From positions 1 to 48,313 of the forward strand of contig JAUSDQ010000101.1 in assembly GCA_030650525.1 (NCBI GenBank): DNA of 48,313 nucleotides. The letters run 5' to 3'. The notes under the pieces are model-generated. The model did not search any database. It saw only the letters and a program-made list of their open reading frames with translations, and was not told the DNA's origin. Below, one piece after another: positions 18,790 to 28,580 of this stretch. The stretch is from Sulfuricaulis sp. (GTDB lineage Bacteria; Pseudomonadota; Gammaproteobacteria; Acidiferrobacterales; Sulfurifustaceae). Numbering within the stretch: the stretch's first letter is position 1; every line of letters starts with the position of its first letter. Made by a program: the position numbers and the translations under genes.

Positions 18790-20097
18790 GTGACTTTTGA
18801 AAAACTGGCTTTACACCCGTCCATCCTCAAGGCGATTACCGAGAGCGGCTACACCGCCCCCACACCGATCCAAACGCAGGCGATACCACAAGCGCTGGCA
18901 GGCCACGACCTCATGGCCTCGGCCCAGACCGGCACCGGCAAGACGGCCGCGTTCGTCATGCCCGCGCTGCAACGGCTGAGCACAGCGTCGACAGTTAATT
19001 CACGCGGCCCACGCGTCCTGGTGCTGACACCGACGCGCGAACTCGCCAATCAGGTGACCGCGGCGGCCATCAAATACGGCAAGCACATGCGCTTTCGCAT
19101 CGGCAGCGTGGTCGGCGGCATGCCTTACCCGCCGCAAATGCGGCTGCTGTCCCAGCCGCTCGATATTCTCGTGGCCACACCCGGAAGGCTGCTCGACCAC
19201 ATGGAACGCGGGCGCATCGATTACTCGCGTCTGGAAGTGCTGGTGCTGGATGAGGCCGACCGCATGCTCGACATGGGTTTCATTCACGCGGTCGAAAAGA
19301 TTGCCGCGGCCACACCGGCCACCCGCCAGACGCTGCTGTTTTCCGCGACGCTCGACGGTAACATCGCCAAGCTCGCGAGCCGCCTGCTGAAAAATCCCAA
19401 GCGCATCCAGATGGCAACGCAGCAGGAACGACATGAGAATATCGAGCAACGGCTGCATCATGTGGACGATGGCGCGCACAAGCAGCGCCTGCTGACACAT
19501 CTGTTGGAAGACATCAACCTGGACAAGGCCATCGTGTTCACCGCCACCAAGCGCGGCGCGGATCGTCTGGCCAAGACCCTGTACGCCAAGGGCCACCCGG
19601 CCGCGGCACTGCACGGCGACATGAATCAGAACCAGCGCAACCGTGCGATCACCAATTTGCGTTCGGGTACCGTGCGCTTGCTGGTGGCAACCGACGTCGC
19701 GGCGCGCGGCATCGACGTCTCCGGCATCACCCATGTCATCAACTTCGATCTGCCGAAAAGCGCCGAAGATTACGTACACCGCATCGGCCGCACCGGCCGC
19801 GCGGGCGCCAAAGGCATCGCCATCTCGTTTGCCGCGCCGGATAATTTCCAGCAATTGCGCGATATCGAGCGTTTTACCCAGCAGACGATCCCGAGCCATG
19901 TGATTCCCGGGTTGGAACCGACCAGCAAACCTCGGCAACACGCTCCGTCAGGCCAACGCCGAGGTAGCTCGTTCAGTCAGAAGCCGCGGCACCCTGGTAA
20001 TTCCCAGCGATATTTCAAAGGAAAGGGCGGCCAGAATCAGCCAGGATCCGGTCAAGGCCGGCGCCAGGGTTCGGGTGACGCCGGTGGCCACGGGTAA
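18790..20097 (+). CDS. rhlE: DEAD-box RNA helicase, RhlE type
   Basis: The ATP-dependent helicase remodels structured RNA, probably in ribosome assembly and mRNA decay. The 435 residues start with the Q motif (MTFEKLALHPSILKAITESG) and continue with motif I AQTGTGKT near residue 44, Ia PTRELANQV, Ib TPGRLLDH, II LDEADRML, III SATLDG, IV FTATKRGADRL, V ATDVAARGIDV and VI HRIGRTGRAG. The tail after about residue 370 is basic and rich in Gly, Gln, Ser and Arg, typical of RhlE. The start is GTG after TAAGGAAGC. The RRM protein gene 270 bases downstream is a plausible functional partner. Confidence 0.93.
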   Translation: MTFEKLALHPSILKAITESGYTAPTPIQTQAIPQALAGHDLMASAQTGTGKTAAFVMPALQRLSTASTVNSRGPRVLVLTPTRELANQVTAAAIKYGKHMRFRIGSVVGGMPYPPQMRLLSQPLDILVATPGRLLDHMERGRIDYSRLEVLVLDEADRMLDMGFIHAVEKIAAATPATRQTLLFSATLDGNIAKLASRLLKNPKRIQMATQQERHENIEQRLHHVDDGAHKQRLLTHLLEDINLDKAIVFTATKRGADRLAKTLYAKGHPAAALHGDMNQNQRNRAITNLRSGTVRLLVATDVAARGIDVSGITHVINFDLPKSAEDYVHRIGRTGRAGAKGIAISFAAPDNFQQLRDIERFTQQTIPSHVIPGLEPTSKPRQHAPSGQRRGSSFSQKPRHPGNSQRYFKGKGGQNQPGSGQGRRQGSGDAGGHG

Positions 20098-20370
20098 AGG
20101 CTGCCCGTGAATTAGCTTTTCATAGGCCGATAGGCCAAAGAACGGAAAGCGATCCTTGAGCACTTGGACGCCGGCGAAACTCAGGCGTATTATCTGTCGC
20201 GGATACCGATGCGGGGTTACTGAAACTCACCCTTTCTTATGCCGATACCAAGGAACCTGGTTCACGCCCGTTCATCCAGCTATCCGGCCGCGCCCTTCTT
20301 TTTTGAGGCACCGTTTCAGGAAAAGAGACACGGTCCATGCTGCCTTACCCTTTCAACTCAGGAGTTAGAT

Positions 20371-20769
20371 ATGAATATCTTTGTAGGAAATCTGTCGCGC
20401 GATGTCACTGAAGAAGATTTGCGGGAGGCGTTTAGTGCCTTTGGACAAATCAGCAAAGTCACCATTCTTAAAGATAAATTCAGTGGTGAACCGCGCGGTT
20501 TCGGTTTCGTCGAAATGCCCGCCAAGGCCGAAGCGACAGCGGCCATCAATGGCATGAACCAGAAGGACTTGAAAGGGCGCGCGTTGAACGTCAATGAAGC
20601 CCGTCCCAAGACCGAGCGTACCGGCGGTGGCGGTGGTGGCGGTGGTGGTGGCGGCGGCCGCGGCGGTTTTGGAAATCGCGGTGGCGGTGGTGGTGGCGGT
20701 GGCTGGGGCAATCGCGGCGGTGGCGGTGGCGGTGCCGGCGGTGGCGGTGGCGGGCGGCGCAGCTACTAG
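20371..20769 (+). CDS. glycine-rich RRM RNA-binding protein
   Basis: The 132 residues comprise one RNA recognition motif (1-80) with RNP2 IFVGNL and RNP1 RGFGFVEM, and a tail of about 50 residues made nearly only of glycine with RGG, FGNRG and WGNRG units. It belongs to the cold-inducible bacterial Rbp type that resembles plant glycine-rich proteins and binds single-stranded RNA. The ATG follows AGGAG by 7 bases; the open upstream frame is ignored. Its position just after rhlE suggests joint action on structured or cold-stabilised RNA. The GGN-repeat DNA is prone to length change. Confidence 0.93.
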   Translation: MNIFVGNLSRDVTEEDLREAFSAFGQISKVTILKDKFSGEPRGFGFVEMPAKAEATAAINGMNQKDLKGRALNVNEARPKTERTGGGGGGGGGGGGRGGFGNRGGGGGGGGWGNRGGGGGGAGGGGGGRRSY

Positions 20770-20853: not shown

Positions 20854-21030
20854 CAGTCAGTGTCTGGACATTCTTCGCGCTTGGCTAGTGCCACGGCGTT
20901 TATTTTTCGATCCGCATTATCTTTGCCATATCTCGCGACCTATTTTTTTCTGAATAAAGTTGTCACGCGGCGAATAGCCGGGTAGTTTATTTCCACCGAC
21001 ACGGCCCGGACGCGAAAGCGGAGCCCACTC

Positions 21031-22515
21031 ATGTCAGACCAGGAAAGTAACGTCGCGCAATTGCTGAGCCTGAGCCGTGCCGCGCGTCTCGTCGGCGTTT
21101 CGCGCGGTGCGCTTCAGAAAAAAATCAAAAACGGCGAACTGCCAACCTTCGAGGGCATGGTCAAGCCTGAAGATCTGGTGCGCGCCTATCCCGATACGCA
21201 GTTGGAAGACAACACCGCCCTCGAACGCTTTTCCCGCATCAAGGACGAGGCCTTCAATTTGCGAGTTCGTGAGCGTCTGCTGCCTGAGCCCGAAGTCCTG
21301 GTCGAAAGACTGGCCGGACTGGGTCGGGAACTGGCGCAAACCAAGGCGCTGGTCGAGCGCTACAAGACCGTCACCGAGTGGCTTTACGACAAGTTCAGCG
21401 AATTCGAAAAGTCCGGCGGTCGCGAAATCATGGGCGTCATGGGGCCGCTGAAGCTGTGGCTGCGTCATGAACTGGAGAAAGAAACGCCCAGCGACTATCT
21501 TCAGTCTTACCTTGTCAAAGATAGTTTTCTTCGGCTTATGACAGCCCATATCCGCCTGCTCCCGGGCCGCCGCGAATTTTTTGTGGAAGGCTCGGATACC
21601 ATCCTGGATGCCGCGCTACGTGCCGGCATTTCCCTGCCCTATCGATGCAGTAACGGCATCTGCGGCTTGTGCAAGGCCAAGGTGGTTTCCGGCAAAACGC
21701 TCCCGGTACGCCATTCTGACTACAGCTTTAGCGAGGTCGAAAAGAACCAGGGCTACGTGCTGCTTTGCTCGCACACGGCGGTATCCGATTTGGAGATTGA
21801 AGCCGCCGTCATCGGCGGCGCACAGGATATACCGGAACAGCAGATCGCCGCCCGCGTCAAGAAGATCGAGCGGCTGGGCGAGAACATGGCCCTGCTGCAC
21901 CTGCAAACACCGCGGACAAAACGACTCCAGTTTCTCGCGGGGCAATCGGTGCTGCTCGAAACCGGCAATGGCGCCGAGGCGGAGCTGCCGGTGGCCAGCT
22001 GCCCGTGCGACGACCGGAATCTCCAGTTCCACATCCAGCGTTTCTCAGATAACCGCCTTTCCGATTACGTGTTCCGGAAACTCAAGAACGGAGATATCGT
22101 CACCCTGACGGGTCCGAAAGGTGAATTCGCCCTGCATGAGGATTCCACGCACTCGCAGATTTATCTCGCCTACGACACGGGATTTGCGCCGATTAAAAGC
22201 CTCATTGAGAATGCCATGGCGCGCGATGTCGCCGACACCATGCATTTGTATTGGGTGGCCGGGAAAGAGGGTCACTACCTTAACAATCTCTGCCGTGCCT
22301 GGACCGACGCGCTGGATAATTTTCAGTACACACCGGTGGTGGCAGAGACAGCCGAAGCGACCCAAGTGCTCGAGCAGATTCAGGCCGATCATGCCGATTT
22401 ATCAGGTTATGATATCTACGTCGCCGGGCCTGCATCGTGCCTGACGGTCGTGAAAGAATTCCTGCGCAACATTAACTTCCCTGAAAACCAGCTGGTGATG
22501 ACCCGCGTCGAATAA
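21031..22515 (+). CDS. HTH-[2Fe-2S] ferredoxin-oxidoreductase-like fusion
   Basis: The 494 residues fuse parts rarely seen together. Residues 8-55 read as a MerR/excisionase-type helix-turn-helix (LSRAARLVGVSRGALQKKIK, then NGELPTFEGMVKPEDL). A helical linker (about 60-165) follows. Residues 170-260 are a plant-type [2Fe-2S] ferredoxin with CSNGICGLC near 206-214 and LLCS near 246, so the cluster ligands CX4CX2C...C are intact. Residues 265-494 align with CDP-6-deoxyglucoseen reductase/AscD-like FAD-NAD modules, but the FAD motif RxYS is replaced by AELPVAS and the NAD glycines of GGTGFAPIKS by AYDTGFAPIKS. I infer a cluster-sensing regulator or a redox protein with altered cofactor use. GGAG precedes the ATG. 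Confidence 0.85.
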   Translation: MSDQESNVAQLLSLSRAARLVGVSRGALQKKIKNGELPTFEGMVKPEDLVRAYPDTQLEDNTALERFSRIKDEAFNLRVRERLLPEPEVLVERLAGLGRELAQTKALVERYKTVTEWLYDKFSEFEKSGGREIMGVMGPLKLWLRHELEKETPSDYLQSYLVKDSFLRLMTAHIRLLPGRREFFVEGSDTILDAALRAGISLPYRCSNGICGLCKAKVVSGKTLPVRHSDYSFSEVEKNQGYVLLCSHTAVSDLEIEAAVIGGAQDIPEQQIAARVKKIERLGENMALLHLQTPRTKRLQFLAGQSVLLETGNGAEAELPVASCPCDDRNLQFHIQRFSDNRLSDYVFRKLKNGDIVTLTGPKGEFALHEDSTHSQIYLAYDTGFAPIKSLIENAMARDVADTMHLYWVAGKEGHYLNNLCRAWTDALDNFQYTPVVAETAEATQVLEQIQADHADLSGYDIYVAGPASCLTVVKEFLRNINFPENQLVMTRVE

Positions 22516-26108: not shown

Positions 26109-28580
26109 TCAACGGAAAGGCTCGGGACGCGGGCGGTGCAGCGTGACAACAGAGCTTTCTTTTTTGCCGGAGGCCGCGGGACTTGCGCCCTGTTTCATGC
26201 TCCAGGAGGAAGTACCCAGCCATTCAATCAGTTCGTTATGGGGGAGCGGCTGGCTGAAGAAATAGCCCTGGACTTTGTCGCAACCGAGCGAAATCAGCAG
26301 ACGCAGGGTTTCCGGATTTTCCACACCCTCCGCCACCACCTGCAGGCTCATGTTGTGCGCGAGGTCGATGGTGGAGCGGACAATAACGGCGTCATTGCCG
26401 TCGAGTTTCATGTCTTTAACAAACGACTTGTCGATCTTGATTTCATCGACGGGCAACCGCTTGAGATAGGCCAGAGACGAATAGCCGGTACCGAAATCGT
26501 CGATTGAAATTCGAACACCCATGGTGTCGAGGCGCGACAGAACCTCGAGCGCGTGCTTGGGATCGGACATCACCGCGCCTTCGGTCAGCTCCAGCGACAA
26601 TCTGGCGGGCGCCACTTCCCAACGGTGCAAAGTATCCATGACATAGTCCACAAAATCGGGCTCATGAAGATTCATGACCGACAGATTGACCGACACGTCG
26701 ATGGAAAATCCTTTTTTTCGCCAATACGAACAGTGCTCCACGGCACGATTGAGCACCCAGCGCGTCAACGGCTGGATCAGGCCGCACTGTTCGGCGATAT
26801 AAATGAATTTTTCCGGCGGCGTAAGATCTTGCGCCGGATAACGCCAGCGAACCAGGGCCTCCACGCAGCATGCCTTGCCGGTGCGAATATCGATCATCGG
26901 CTGGTAATACAATTCGAGACTGTCTTTCTCAATGGCCTGGCGCAGATCGCGTTCAAATGTCAATTGCAGCAGTTTGTGACGATCGCGGACGCTGTCGAAA
27001 AAGGCATAACCGACCTTGGTCTTCTTGGCCTGGTACATGGCGATGTCCGCCTGCCGCAGGAGCGTCATGGGGTCGGAGCCGTGCTCAGGATAAAGGGCGA
27101 TACCAATACTGACGCCAACATGGAAACGATGCATCCCGATCATGAACGGTTGTTCCATCGCCTTGATGAATTTCTGGCTGATGTTCACGGCCAGATTGGC
27201 TTCGCTGACGTCCGGCAAGATGACCGCGAATTCATCGCCACCCAGCCGCGCAATAATCGTTCCTTCTTTCAGTGTCGCGTTTTCTTCCCCCGCGGAGACG
27301 GAATTATTGTCGGAGCGACGCAGCACTCCTTTGAGCCGGGTGCCGACCTGTTTCAGCAGTTGATCGCCGATATCATGGCCAAAGGTATCGTTGACCTCCT
27401 TGAAACGATCGAGATCCATGACAAACAGGCCAAGCGGTTTTTGATTCTTAAGAGTGGAACCGGTCAACTGCTTCAAAGATTCATGAAAATGGGCCCGATT
27501 CGGCAACTCGGTGAGCGTATCGGTGTACGCCATGCGCCTCAGCATCCGATGCAACCCCCCCAGTTCCGTGCTCAGGGTATTGAAATCCTGCGCGAGTTCG
27601 CGAATTTCAACGGTGCCGTCCGGCGCCAGGGTCTCACCCAGACGGGTACGGTCTTTCTGCACGGTACGCAGTTTATCGTGCAACGCCAGTAACGGGCGCA
27701 GCGTCGTGTTCCGCAACACCAGCAGGGCAACGGCGATCATCAGCAGCGTAATGATGCCCGCGACCATCATGACCATATTACGCGTCATGGCCAGCTTTTC
27801 ATGAAGCGCTTGAATATCGCTCAGTATCGCCACCGTCATGACCCGCCCCGTGACAGGAGTTTCCAGCGTGAATTCCGCCACCAATGCCTTTTCCATGGCA
27901 TTCGGCGGCATCCATGCTTTCGACTTGTATAGTACCAAACCGGGGGGAATCGTCATCTTGAGCGGCATTCCCAGGGCGGATTCGATCTGGGCGAGACTGT
28001 AAGAAGGATCGGTAGTGACCTGCAGATAACCTCGCGGCCGCAGTCCGCCGACAGGAACGATTACCGCGTAATAAGGCTGATCGGCAAACACACAAAGTTG
28101 AGAAGCCGGTAATAACCGGAAGCGCCCTTGGCGTGCCCGGACCTGTGCAATCAAAGCAGGACAGGCCACATTTCCGTTGGCCAGCTTCGCGGTACCCTCG
28201 GAAGACTCCGCGACCTGTGAAAACTCAAGATCGAACACCTGCAGTTTTTGCAACTTGATCACATCGGCCGTGGCGAAATATTGGTGAAACTGGCTGTCCA
28301 TCAGACGCGCCAGGGCACCGGCATCGCGCGCGTTAAAGGCACGCTGAAATTTGTCTCCGTGCTGAATCATCAGCCCCAGGTCACGTGACTTTGACTCAAG
28401 GTCGCTGAGAAGATCGCTGGTCTTGAGCTGCAGCATGCTCACCATGGCCGTGCGTTGGTTCTCCAACGCTTCCTGGCGATACATTTCACCGGTCACCAGC
28501 GCGAGAACGAGACCGAACAGACCCATCACCACGATAGTGAGGGTCAACGAAGCGCGCATGGTCAAACGTTGTATCAGCAT
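26109..28580 (-). CDS. membrane sensor GGDEF-EAL c-di-GMP enzyme
   Basis: The 823 residues have a membrane helix at 10-32, a periplasmic sensor of about 230 residues holding only two cysteines (NVACPAL near 138 and SQLCVFAD near 160), a second helix at about 270-292, a HAMP-like linker, GGDEF (about 355-540) and EAL (about 550-795). GGDEF is intact (ARLGGDEFAVILPD). An insert of about 17 residues separates the RRSD inhibitory motif from it. EAL residues EALVRW, NLSVMNL, ELTEGAV, DDFGTGYSS, IKIDKSF, AEGVE and QGYFFSQP are intact, so it may both make and degrade c-di-GMP. It starts 19 bases after the rhodanese gene. Confidence 0.93.
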   Translation of the reverse strand: MLIQRLTMRASLTLTIVVMGLFGLVLALVTGEMYRQEALENQRTAMVSMLQLKTSDLLSDLESKSRDLGLMIQHGDKFQRAFNARDAGALARLMDSQFHQYFATADVIKLQKLQVFDLEFSQVAESSEGTAKLANGNVACPALIAQVRARQGRFRLLPASQLCVFADQPYYAVIVPVGGLRPRGYLQVTTDPSYSLAQIESALGMPLKMTIPPGLVLYKSKAWMPPNAMEKALVAEFTLETPVTGRVMTVAILSDIQALHEKLAMTRNMVMMVAGIITLLMIAVALLVLRNTTLRPLLALHDKLRTVQKDRTRLGETLAPDGTVEIRELAQDFNTLSTELGGLHRMLRRMAYTDTLTELPNRAHFHESLKQLTGSTLKNQKPLGLFVMDLDRFKEVNDTFGHDIGDQLLKQVGTRLKGVLRRSDNNSVSAGEENATLKEGTIIARLGGDEFAVILPDVSEANLAVNISQKFIKAMEQPFMIGMHRFHVGVSIGIALYPEHGSDPMTLLRQADIAMYQAKKTKVGYAFFDSVRDRHKLLQLTFERDLRQAIEKDSLELYYQPMIDIRTGKACCVEALVRWRYPAQDLTPPEKFIYIAEQCGLIQPLTRWVLNRAVEHCSYWRKKGFSIDVSVNLSVMNLHEPDFVDYVMDTLHRWEVAPARLSLELTEGAVMSDPKHALEVLSRLDTMGVRISIDDFGTGYSSLAYLKRLPVDEIKIDKSFVKDMKLDGNDAVIVRSTIDLAHNMSLQVVAEGVENPETLRLLISLGCDKVQGYFFSQPLPHNELIEWLGTSSWSMKQGASPAASGKKESSVVTLHRPRPEPFR

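Follow-up and report, generated by a model that had tools for sequence, protein, structure and literature searches.

A gene at 21031..22515 on the forward strand raises the question of why a helix-turn-helix (HTH) should stand at the head of a protein that otherwise resembles an iron-sulfur flavin reductase, and whether such a protein acts as an enzyme or as a regulator. It lies within a stretch of 48,313 nucleotides from Sulfuricaulis sp. (contig JAUSDQ010000101.1), which was analysed as a whole and is referred to here as the window. The gene starts with ATG and encodes 494 amino acids plus a stop codon, and full-length homologues exist. The original prediction had read the protein as an HTH, a helical linker, a [2Fe-2S] ferredoxin domain and a decayed reductase module, which together might form a one-component redox or oxygen sensor controlled by the cluster.

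Domain architecture and database matches

The proposed domain order was borne out by Pfam matches, conservation and structural models, with all features on the forward strand. The MerR/excisionase-like HTH covers residues 9–57 (21055..21201) and is followed by a helical linker at residues 58–170 (21202..21540), in which two AlphaFold models predict a long helix at residues 87–128. The plant-type [2Fe-2S] ferredoxin domain occupies residues 171–260 (21541..21810; Pfam Fer2 at 181–248, E 2.9e-13). The reductase-like half, assigned from Pfam, the model and structural neighbours, consists of a FAD-domain-like part at residues 266–372 (21826..22146; FAD_binding_6 at 274–366, E 1.9e-6) and an NAD-domain-like part at residues 373–494 (22147..22512; NAD_binding_1 at 383–470, E 8.5e-6). 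These three Pfam matches exceeded their gathering scores, and an HTH_17 match at residues 11–40 fell under its own (E 0.01, 16.5 vs. 27 bits). As predicted, the cluster motif is intact: the CSNGICGLC loop (21646..21672), read from sequence and alignment, supplies the ligands C206-x4-C211-x2-C214, C246 completes the set, and all four cysteines were present in 32/32 full-length alignment rows.

Neither Pfam nor NCBIfam had a specific family model for the whole fusion protein, and the nearest NCBIfam model, BenC, scored 147.2 bits against a cut-off of 430. A PADLOC search gave a best E of 0.0042 over the HTH alone, and a plasmid search at E 1e-60 returned no match to the fusion protein. A literature search, in which several queries demanded most rather than all terms, found the regulator ThnY and no description of the fusion. 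The protein appears to belong to a conserved family that had previously gone unstudied.

The predicted HTH and helical linker

For the reality of the predicted HTH, sequence conservation is a stronger argument than the sequence or structure matches. Seven residues (R16, A17, A18, L20, G22, R25 and Q29) were identical in 32/32 full-length HTH-bearing rows, window protein included, indicating that the domain is retained in homologues. Median dN/dS, estimated from nine same-genus sequences with between 32 and all 36 pairs usable in each region, was lowest among the five regions in the HTH (0.09), compared with 0.15 in the linker, 0.10 in Fer2, 0.11 in the FAD-like part and 0.17 in the NAD-like part. 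Both AlphaFold models placed a helix-turn-helix at the N-terminus, with pLDDT block means of 67–86 over residues 11–50 (mean pLDDT of the N-terminal model, 69). Because seven residues are invariant, dN/dS is lowest there and both models contain the fold, we do not regard the HTH as a chance match.

In a Foldseek search with the N-terminal model, the ten top-ranked structural neighbours were MerR, Xis, BldC or SoxR-type regulators, although the best E-value was only 0.18. They included HiNmlR, SkgA, BldC, SoxR (2zhh, weak) and Xis 4j2n, the last aligning with a probability of 1.00 and 1.3 Å over 47 columns. MerR-like HTHs can also bind proteins, as in the CbpM complex. Since this complex (3ucs) appeared at rank 14, DNA binding by the predicted HTH is graded as likely rather than established on the strength of the sequence and the models.

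The HTH and linker also exist as separate proteins of ca. 150 amino acids. Such stand-alone HTH-plus-helix proteins occurred at loci L094–L113 (e.g., L100:5828-6262 and L110:5666-6121); eight N-type proteins scanned against Pfam matched no family above cut-off, and three checked against NCBIfam gave no match. In four loci, the stand-alone HTH half comes after a gene belonging to one particular neighbour cluster, the L094 representative of which carries an Xre/MbcA/ParS domain at its C-terminus.

A remodelled reductase-like half

A structural search with the model assigned the redox half a ferredoxin-reductase fold (best PDB match 5ogx, E 1.1e-18); the ferredoxin domain was modelled poorly, with pLDDT under 50 over residues 151–265. 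Alignment with paralogues that keep RRSFS confirmed that both cofactor motifs are altered in the window protein. The RxYS position reads A317-E318-L319-P320 (21979..21990) and the GGTG position Y381-D382-T383-G384 (22171..22182), so that the first two glycines of the GGxGxxP signature are replaced and G384 and P387 are retained. Between them lies Cys324-Pro325-Cys326 (CPC; 22000..22008), found in 32/32 full-length rows and absent from 6/6 ordinary paralogues. A further family-specific cysteine, Cys421 in an NxCR context (22291..22293), is near-invariant (30/32 full-length rows).

To survey these positions, 934 open frames over 250 amino acids from the collected loci were scored with a profile of 13 relatives, giving 109 unique scored rows: 100 above 310 bits (window included), seven at 240–310 bits and two weak. 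Six of the seven middle rows were ordinary paralogues that have Arg at position 317 and lack CPC; the remaining one, L170, is a divergent, CPC-carrying fused protein that falls below the 310-bit cut. Cys324 and Cys326 occurred in 100/100 family rows and in 0/6 ordinary paralogues, counts that should be read knowing that the profile was built from CPC-bearing sequences and that the rows are related and hence not independent. Entry into the 100 rows required neither ferredoxin Cys, A322 nor P325. Cys421 was present in 88/100.

The changes at the FAD and NAD motifs proved common across the family rows. Arg at 317 was kept in 6/62 rows labelled fused, 24/38 not labelled fused and 6/6 ordinary paralogues, and the second glycine of GGTG was Asp or Glu in 45/62 fused and 31/38 not-fused rows. 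G384 was retained in 97/100 rows and Tyr stood at 319 in 33/62 fused rows. The 'fused' label missed L085 and L165, which are fused on inspection, and L043 is cut by a contig end; L033 was omitted from the alignment as being on the same contig as L015, and L028 was left out of A2 and A3 owing to a stop-codon error and used elsewhere as its open frame. Because the half is under purifying selection (dN/dS of 0.11 and 0.17 in its two parts) and carries an invariant CPC alongside the near-invariant Cys421, the description of it as decayed did not hold, and it is better regarded as remodelled. FAD may still be bound despite the altered motif.

BenC and the class IB/III dioxygenase reductases share the Fer2-FAD-NAD order and fold (1krh, 5ogx). 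Relative to them, the window protein adds the HTH and CPC, alters RxYS and GGTG, and has no dioxygenase cluster beside its gene. The same genome encodes a BenC-like paralogue (C155, L002), which we take to be AscD-like; it is 36–38% identical over the redox half, has RRSFS, lacks CPC and the HTH, and scored 223 bits against the NCBIfam BenC model, under the cut-off.

Distribution and history of the fusion

Among 60 relatives, 22 gave matches that start in the HTH and extend into the redox half, including 8/8 from the same genus. Named genomes supplied eleven loci, among whose hosts are an Acidiferrobacterales bacterium, a further gammaproteobacterium, and betaproteobacteria including Rhodoferax. 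The sample from the class comprised 369 genomes; an N half was detected in 66 of them and a C half in 70 (71 with the genome of L170). The C half was called by score, with CPC read in part; its cut was set in a score gap from 321.8 to 296.4 bits, and at most five candidates were scored per genome. By placement, the 369 genomes gave 34 places with a fused gene, eight with the two halves side by side on one strand, 25 with an N half by itself and 41 with a C half not beside an N half, the fused form occurring under 17 family labels. The two halves occurred together in 54 genomes, with N only in 12, C only in 16 and neither in 287 (Fisher p 2e-38, kinship ignored; the genome of L170 was counted as N only in this test). 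In 11/369 genomes an N half was present for which no C half was detected, and 16/369 showed the converse. In the phylum sample, 6/398 genomes, the window's own included, matched at E 1e-90; one of these six genomes, from outside the class, had two copies, one of them fused.

A maximum-likelihood tree of 107 redox halves, read with the labels of L085, L165 and L043 corrected, separated the six ordinary paralogues with support of 100/100. All 65 fused rows fell into one group of 68, whose support (92/83) is under the tool's strong mark and whose other members were L026 and L135, with no detected HTH, and the truncated L043. Thirty separate C genes formed a second group (97/93). The fused label requires two changes on this tree. 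This pattern fits one old fusion with few losses, without proving it.

Association with Dsr-type sulfur oxidation

The occurrence of the family tracks Dsr-type sulfur oxidation, an association new in this analysis. Within this class, the presence of dsrA usually points to the oxidation of sulfur and not to the reduction of sulfate. The gene (TIGR02064) was over cut-off in 106 of the 350 genomes that this count covers (G402–G420, including G409 and G413, were presumably left out of the 369). It was found in 68/80 genomes with either half vs. 38/270 with neither (p 2e-32, kinship ignored), and five more of the 80 carry a partial dsrA. Considering only fused-bearing genomes, dsrA was present in 25/33 and partial in three more, leaving five without it (G123, G233, G241, G339 and G370). 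DsrC-family genes were found in 54/54 fused-bearing genomes searched, but also in 187/369 genomes of the class; three or more of them occurred in 73/82 genomes with either half vs. 44/287 without (kinship ignored).

The DsrC family (PF04358) is also a neighbour that recurs across families. A DsrC-family gene lies directly beside the fused gene on the same strand in L054 and L059, and directly beside the C half in L161 (same strand) and in L163 and G394 (convergent); in the Rhodoferax-group loci it is found roughly three genes upstream, and several other loci have it within ca. 6 kb. C-half genes lie 3.6 kb from dsrA in G011 and 10–16 kb from it on the same contig in G071, G098, G143, G238 and G301. 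In the single-contig genomes G005 and G011, which represent the window's genus and family, the distance between the fused gene and the closest listed dsrA or DsrC gene exceeds 240 kb (400 kb in G005, the one from the genus). The genome that contains the window carries seven genes of the DsrC family. Its two dsrA genes, both over the curated cut-off, are on different contigs (G000:C189 and G000:C135), and G005 and G011 also have two.

Genomic neighbourhood and upstream region

In the window, genes for a DEAD-box helicase and a glycine-rich RRM protein (18790–20769) lie directly upstream of the fusion gene, and a gene for a GGDEF/EAL protein (26112–28580) lies downstream. Six of the seven window neighbours scanned had a Pfam match (DEAD-box helicase, RRM protein, S9 peptidase, UPF0047, FKBP and endonuclease V), and there was no reductase, oxygenase or LysR gene among the seven, in agreement with the prediction that no reductase partner is nearby. 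Within the genus, the S9 peptidase gene was adjacent in 9/9 loci and the helicase gene was within three genes in 9/9.

Neighbours were clustered around 30 loci taken as fused, 20 N-half matches and 20 C-half matches. L061 in the fused set, L097 and L104 in the N set, and L148, L150 and L151 in the C set gave no target, and at least five fused loci (L047, L048, L049, L051 and L058) were read by cluster label. The neighbour clusters that cross families were K2, the DsrC family, and K1, GGDEF/EAL proteins, whose domain is a common one. In seven Rhodoferax-group loci, a TauD-family dioxygenase gene lies directly upstream of the fused homologue, so that an oxygenase partner is conceivable there. 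In L039:2308-4924 and sister Rhodoferax-group loci, the genes upstream of the fused gene are Cas6-like, DsrC-family, unnamed and TauD-family, the Cas6-like assignment having been scanned in L039.

Separate CPC-type genes showed other neighbours. In two genomes of one family, such a gene directly follows hemE (L144, in which URO-D was scanned, and L147, by cluster), and in two genomes of another family it adjoins a molybdopterin oxidoreductase gene (L156 by Pfam, L154 by cluster).

An operator common to the genus was not found in the upstream 330 bases of nine same-genus genes. Upstream conservation was limited to the window, L044, L047 and L048, and an imperfect palindrome at 20928–20943 was not conserved. 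With no genus-conserved operator upstream, autoregulation is therefore without support here.

Proposed function and alternatives

Because the usual cofactor motifs are missing and the hosts are mainly sulfur oxidisers, the protein may switch genes according to redox or sulfur state rather than act as an enzyme. On balance, sequence and analogy incline us towards a DNA-binding regulator that responds to redox or sulfur state and is employed chiefly by Dsr-type sulfur oxidisers, that is, an electron-transfer protein apparently turned regulator. The idea of a sensor in the original prediction is thus reasonable, with the sulfur-oxidation context added. In such a protein, the linker would dimerise the chain and the HTH would bind DNA. 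The cluster would receive its electrons from another protein, a ferredoxin or reductase, instead of from NAD(P)H. The remodelled half would relay the state of the cluster, perhaps with the CPC thiols as intermediaries, to the linker and on to the HTH, with target genes presumably serving sulfur oxidation. Counted against a regulator are the 38 dsrA-bearing genomes with neither half, the five fused-bearing genomes without dsrA, the genomes with one half only, the large distances to dsrA and DsrC genes in G005 and G011, the TauD-family neighbour in the Rhodoferax group, the protein-binding HTH of CbpM, the sub-threshold HTH_17 match and the lack of a conserved operator. A narrower version is put forward only as a doubtful possibility: a widespread class of one-component regulators of Dsr-type sulfur oxidation, in which CPC, as a redox, sulfane-sulfur or metal site, replaces FAD and NAD(P)H and sets DNA binding together with the [2Fe-2S] cluster.

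The closest known parallel is ThnY of Sphingopyxis granuli TFA. According to the available text of its description, ThnY holds FAD and [2Fe-2S], has lost the glycine signature, is reduced by the ferredoxin ThnA3 and not by NAD(P)H, and, when oxidised, assists the LysR regulator ThnR as a transcriptional co-activator; the same text presents it as the first case of a ferredoxin-like reductase from a dioxygenase system with a sensing role in gene expression (PMC6563040). In the accessible part of a second paper, mutation of the cluster residue Cys40, or restoration of consensus residues at N201 and S206, abolished discrimination between inducers (PMC3771892). As far as these texts go, ThnY and the window family share a plant-type [2Fe-2S] domain and a ferredoxin-reductase half with an altered glycine signature (PMC6563040, PMC3771892), and the role of ThnY is regulatory rather than catalytic, as it would be by analogy for the window protein. 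The two differ in that ThnY keeps RxYS (Arg137, Tyr139) and FAD, whereas RxYS is altered in the window protein, and in the signature changes themselves (N200, N201 and S206 in ThnY; Y381 and D382 in place of Gly in the window protein). The same portions of text give ThnY three domains, none of them an HTH, and make it dependent on ThnR, whereas the window protein has its own predicted HTH. ThnY as so described makes the idea of a redox regulator plausible, though there a separate LysR protein binds DNA. The window family might act like ThnY and its DNA-binding partner joined in one polypeptide or, in genomes with split halves, encoded as an adjacent gene pair.

SoxR/MerR regulators have a MerR-type winged HTH, which the predicted HTH of the window protein resembles weakly in sequence and structure, and SoxR also has an iron-sulfur redox sensor. 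The SoxR cluster motif is placed after the coiled coil. No SoxR-type motif was found at that place in the window protein, whose cluster ligands instead belong to a separate plant-type ferredoxin domain accompanied by a large reductase-like half.

The strict conservation of CPC bears on a different possibility, that sensing is really done by these cysteines, alone or together with Cys421, and the [2Fe-2S] cluster only feeds electrons to them; the site could be a thiol/disulfide or persulfide switch, or bind a metal, heme or second cluster. C324 and C326 are kept more strictly than the flavin or NAD residues, and most hosts are Dsr-type sulfur oxidisers, in which sulfane-sulfur signals are expected. 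SqrR and CstR are Cys-pair persulfide sensors. Cys421, however, is absent in 12/100 rows, and the hemE adjacency of L144 and L147, which counts in its favour, is confined to one family. We consider this explanation unlikely though not negligible, noting that CPC is the active-site motif of Mia40 in the accessible text of PMC4019985.

It is quite unlikely, in our estimate, that the protein instead carries electrons in sulfur metabolism, e.g., delivering them to DsrC or to an enzyme encoded nearby, while the HTH serves for tethering or interaction. FAD_binding_6 and NAD_binding_1 do remain above gathering score, G384 and, in about half of the fused rows, Tyr319 persist, and DsrC-family genes (L054, L059, L161, L163 and G394) or TauD-like genes (the seven Rhodoferax-group loci) can be direct neighbours. 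Against this, the RxYS arginine is missing in 56/62 fused rows, an acidic residue stands in the pyrophosphate loop in 45/62, the BenC score is far under its cut-off, and most family copies lack a DsrC- or TauD-type neighbour in the flanks read. TauD-type enzymes, moreover, draw electrons from 2-oxoglutarate. The HTH could also be a protein-interaction module as in CbpM, making the protein a redox adaptor; the CbpM complex at rank 14 and the sub-threshold HTH_17 score are consistent with this, but the ten top-ranked structural neighbours are all regulators and R25 and Q29 are invariant, and we find it the least probable of these explanations.

Should the DNA-binding regulator be the correct reading, a fused family spread across 17 family labels would make the ThnY type of route general, and the fusion would allow communication between an electron-transfer chain and DNA to be tested within one protein. 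Its link with dsrA and DsrC makes the family a candidate for regulating sulfur oxidation, and finding an invariant CPC in a fold whose usual occupant is flavin raises a question of chemistry.

Other arrangements of the redox half

In L095:3044-6494, the gene that comes after a split HTH/redox pair, on the same strand, encodes a protein kinase with a fused FGE-sulfatase domain. Another paralogous ferredoxin/reductase half in the window's genome (L003, G000:C278:23321-24232) is part of a 659-amino-acid frame whose N-terminus, by eye, looks like a membrane cytochrome b, and frames of similar length recur in the genus.
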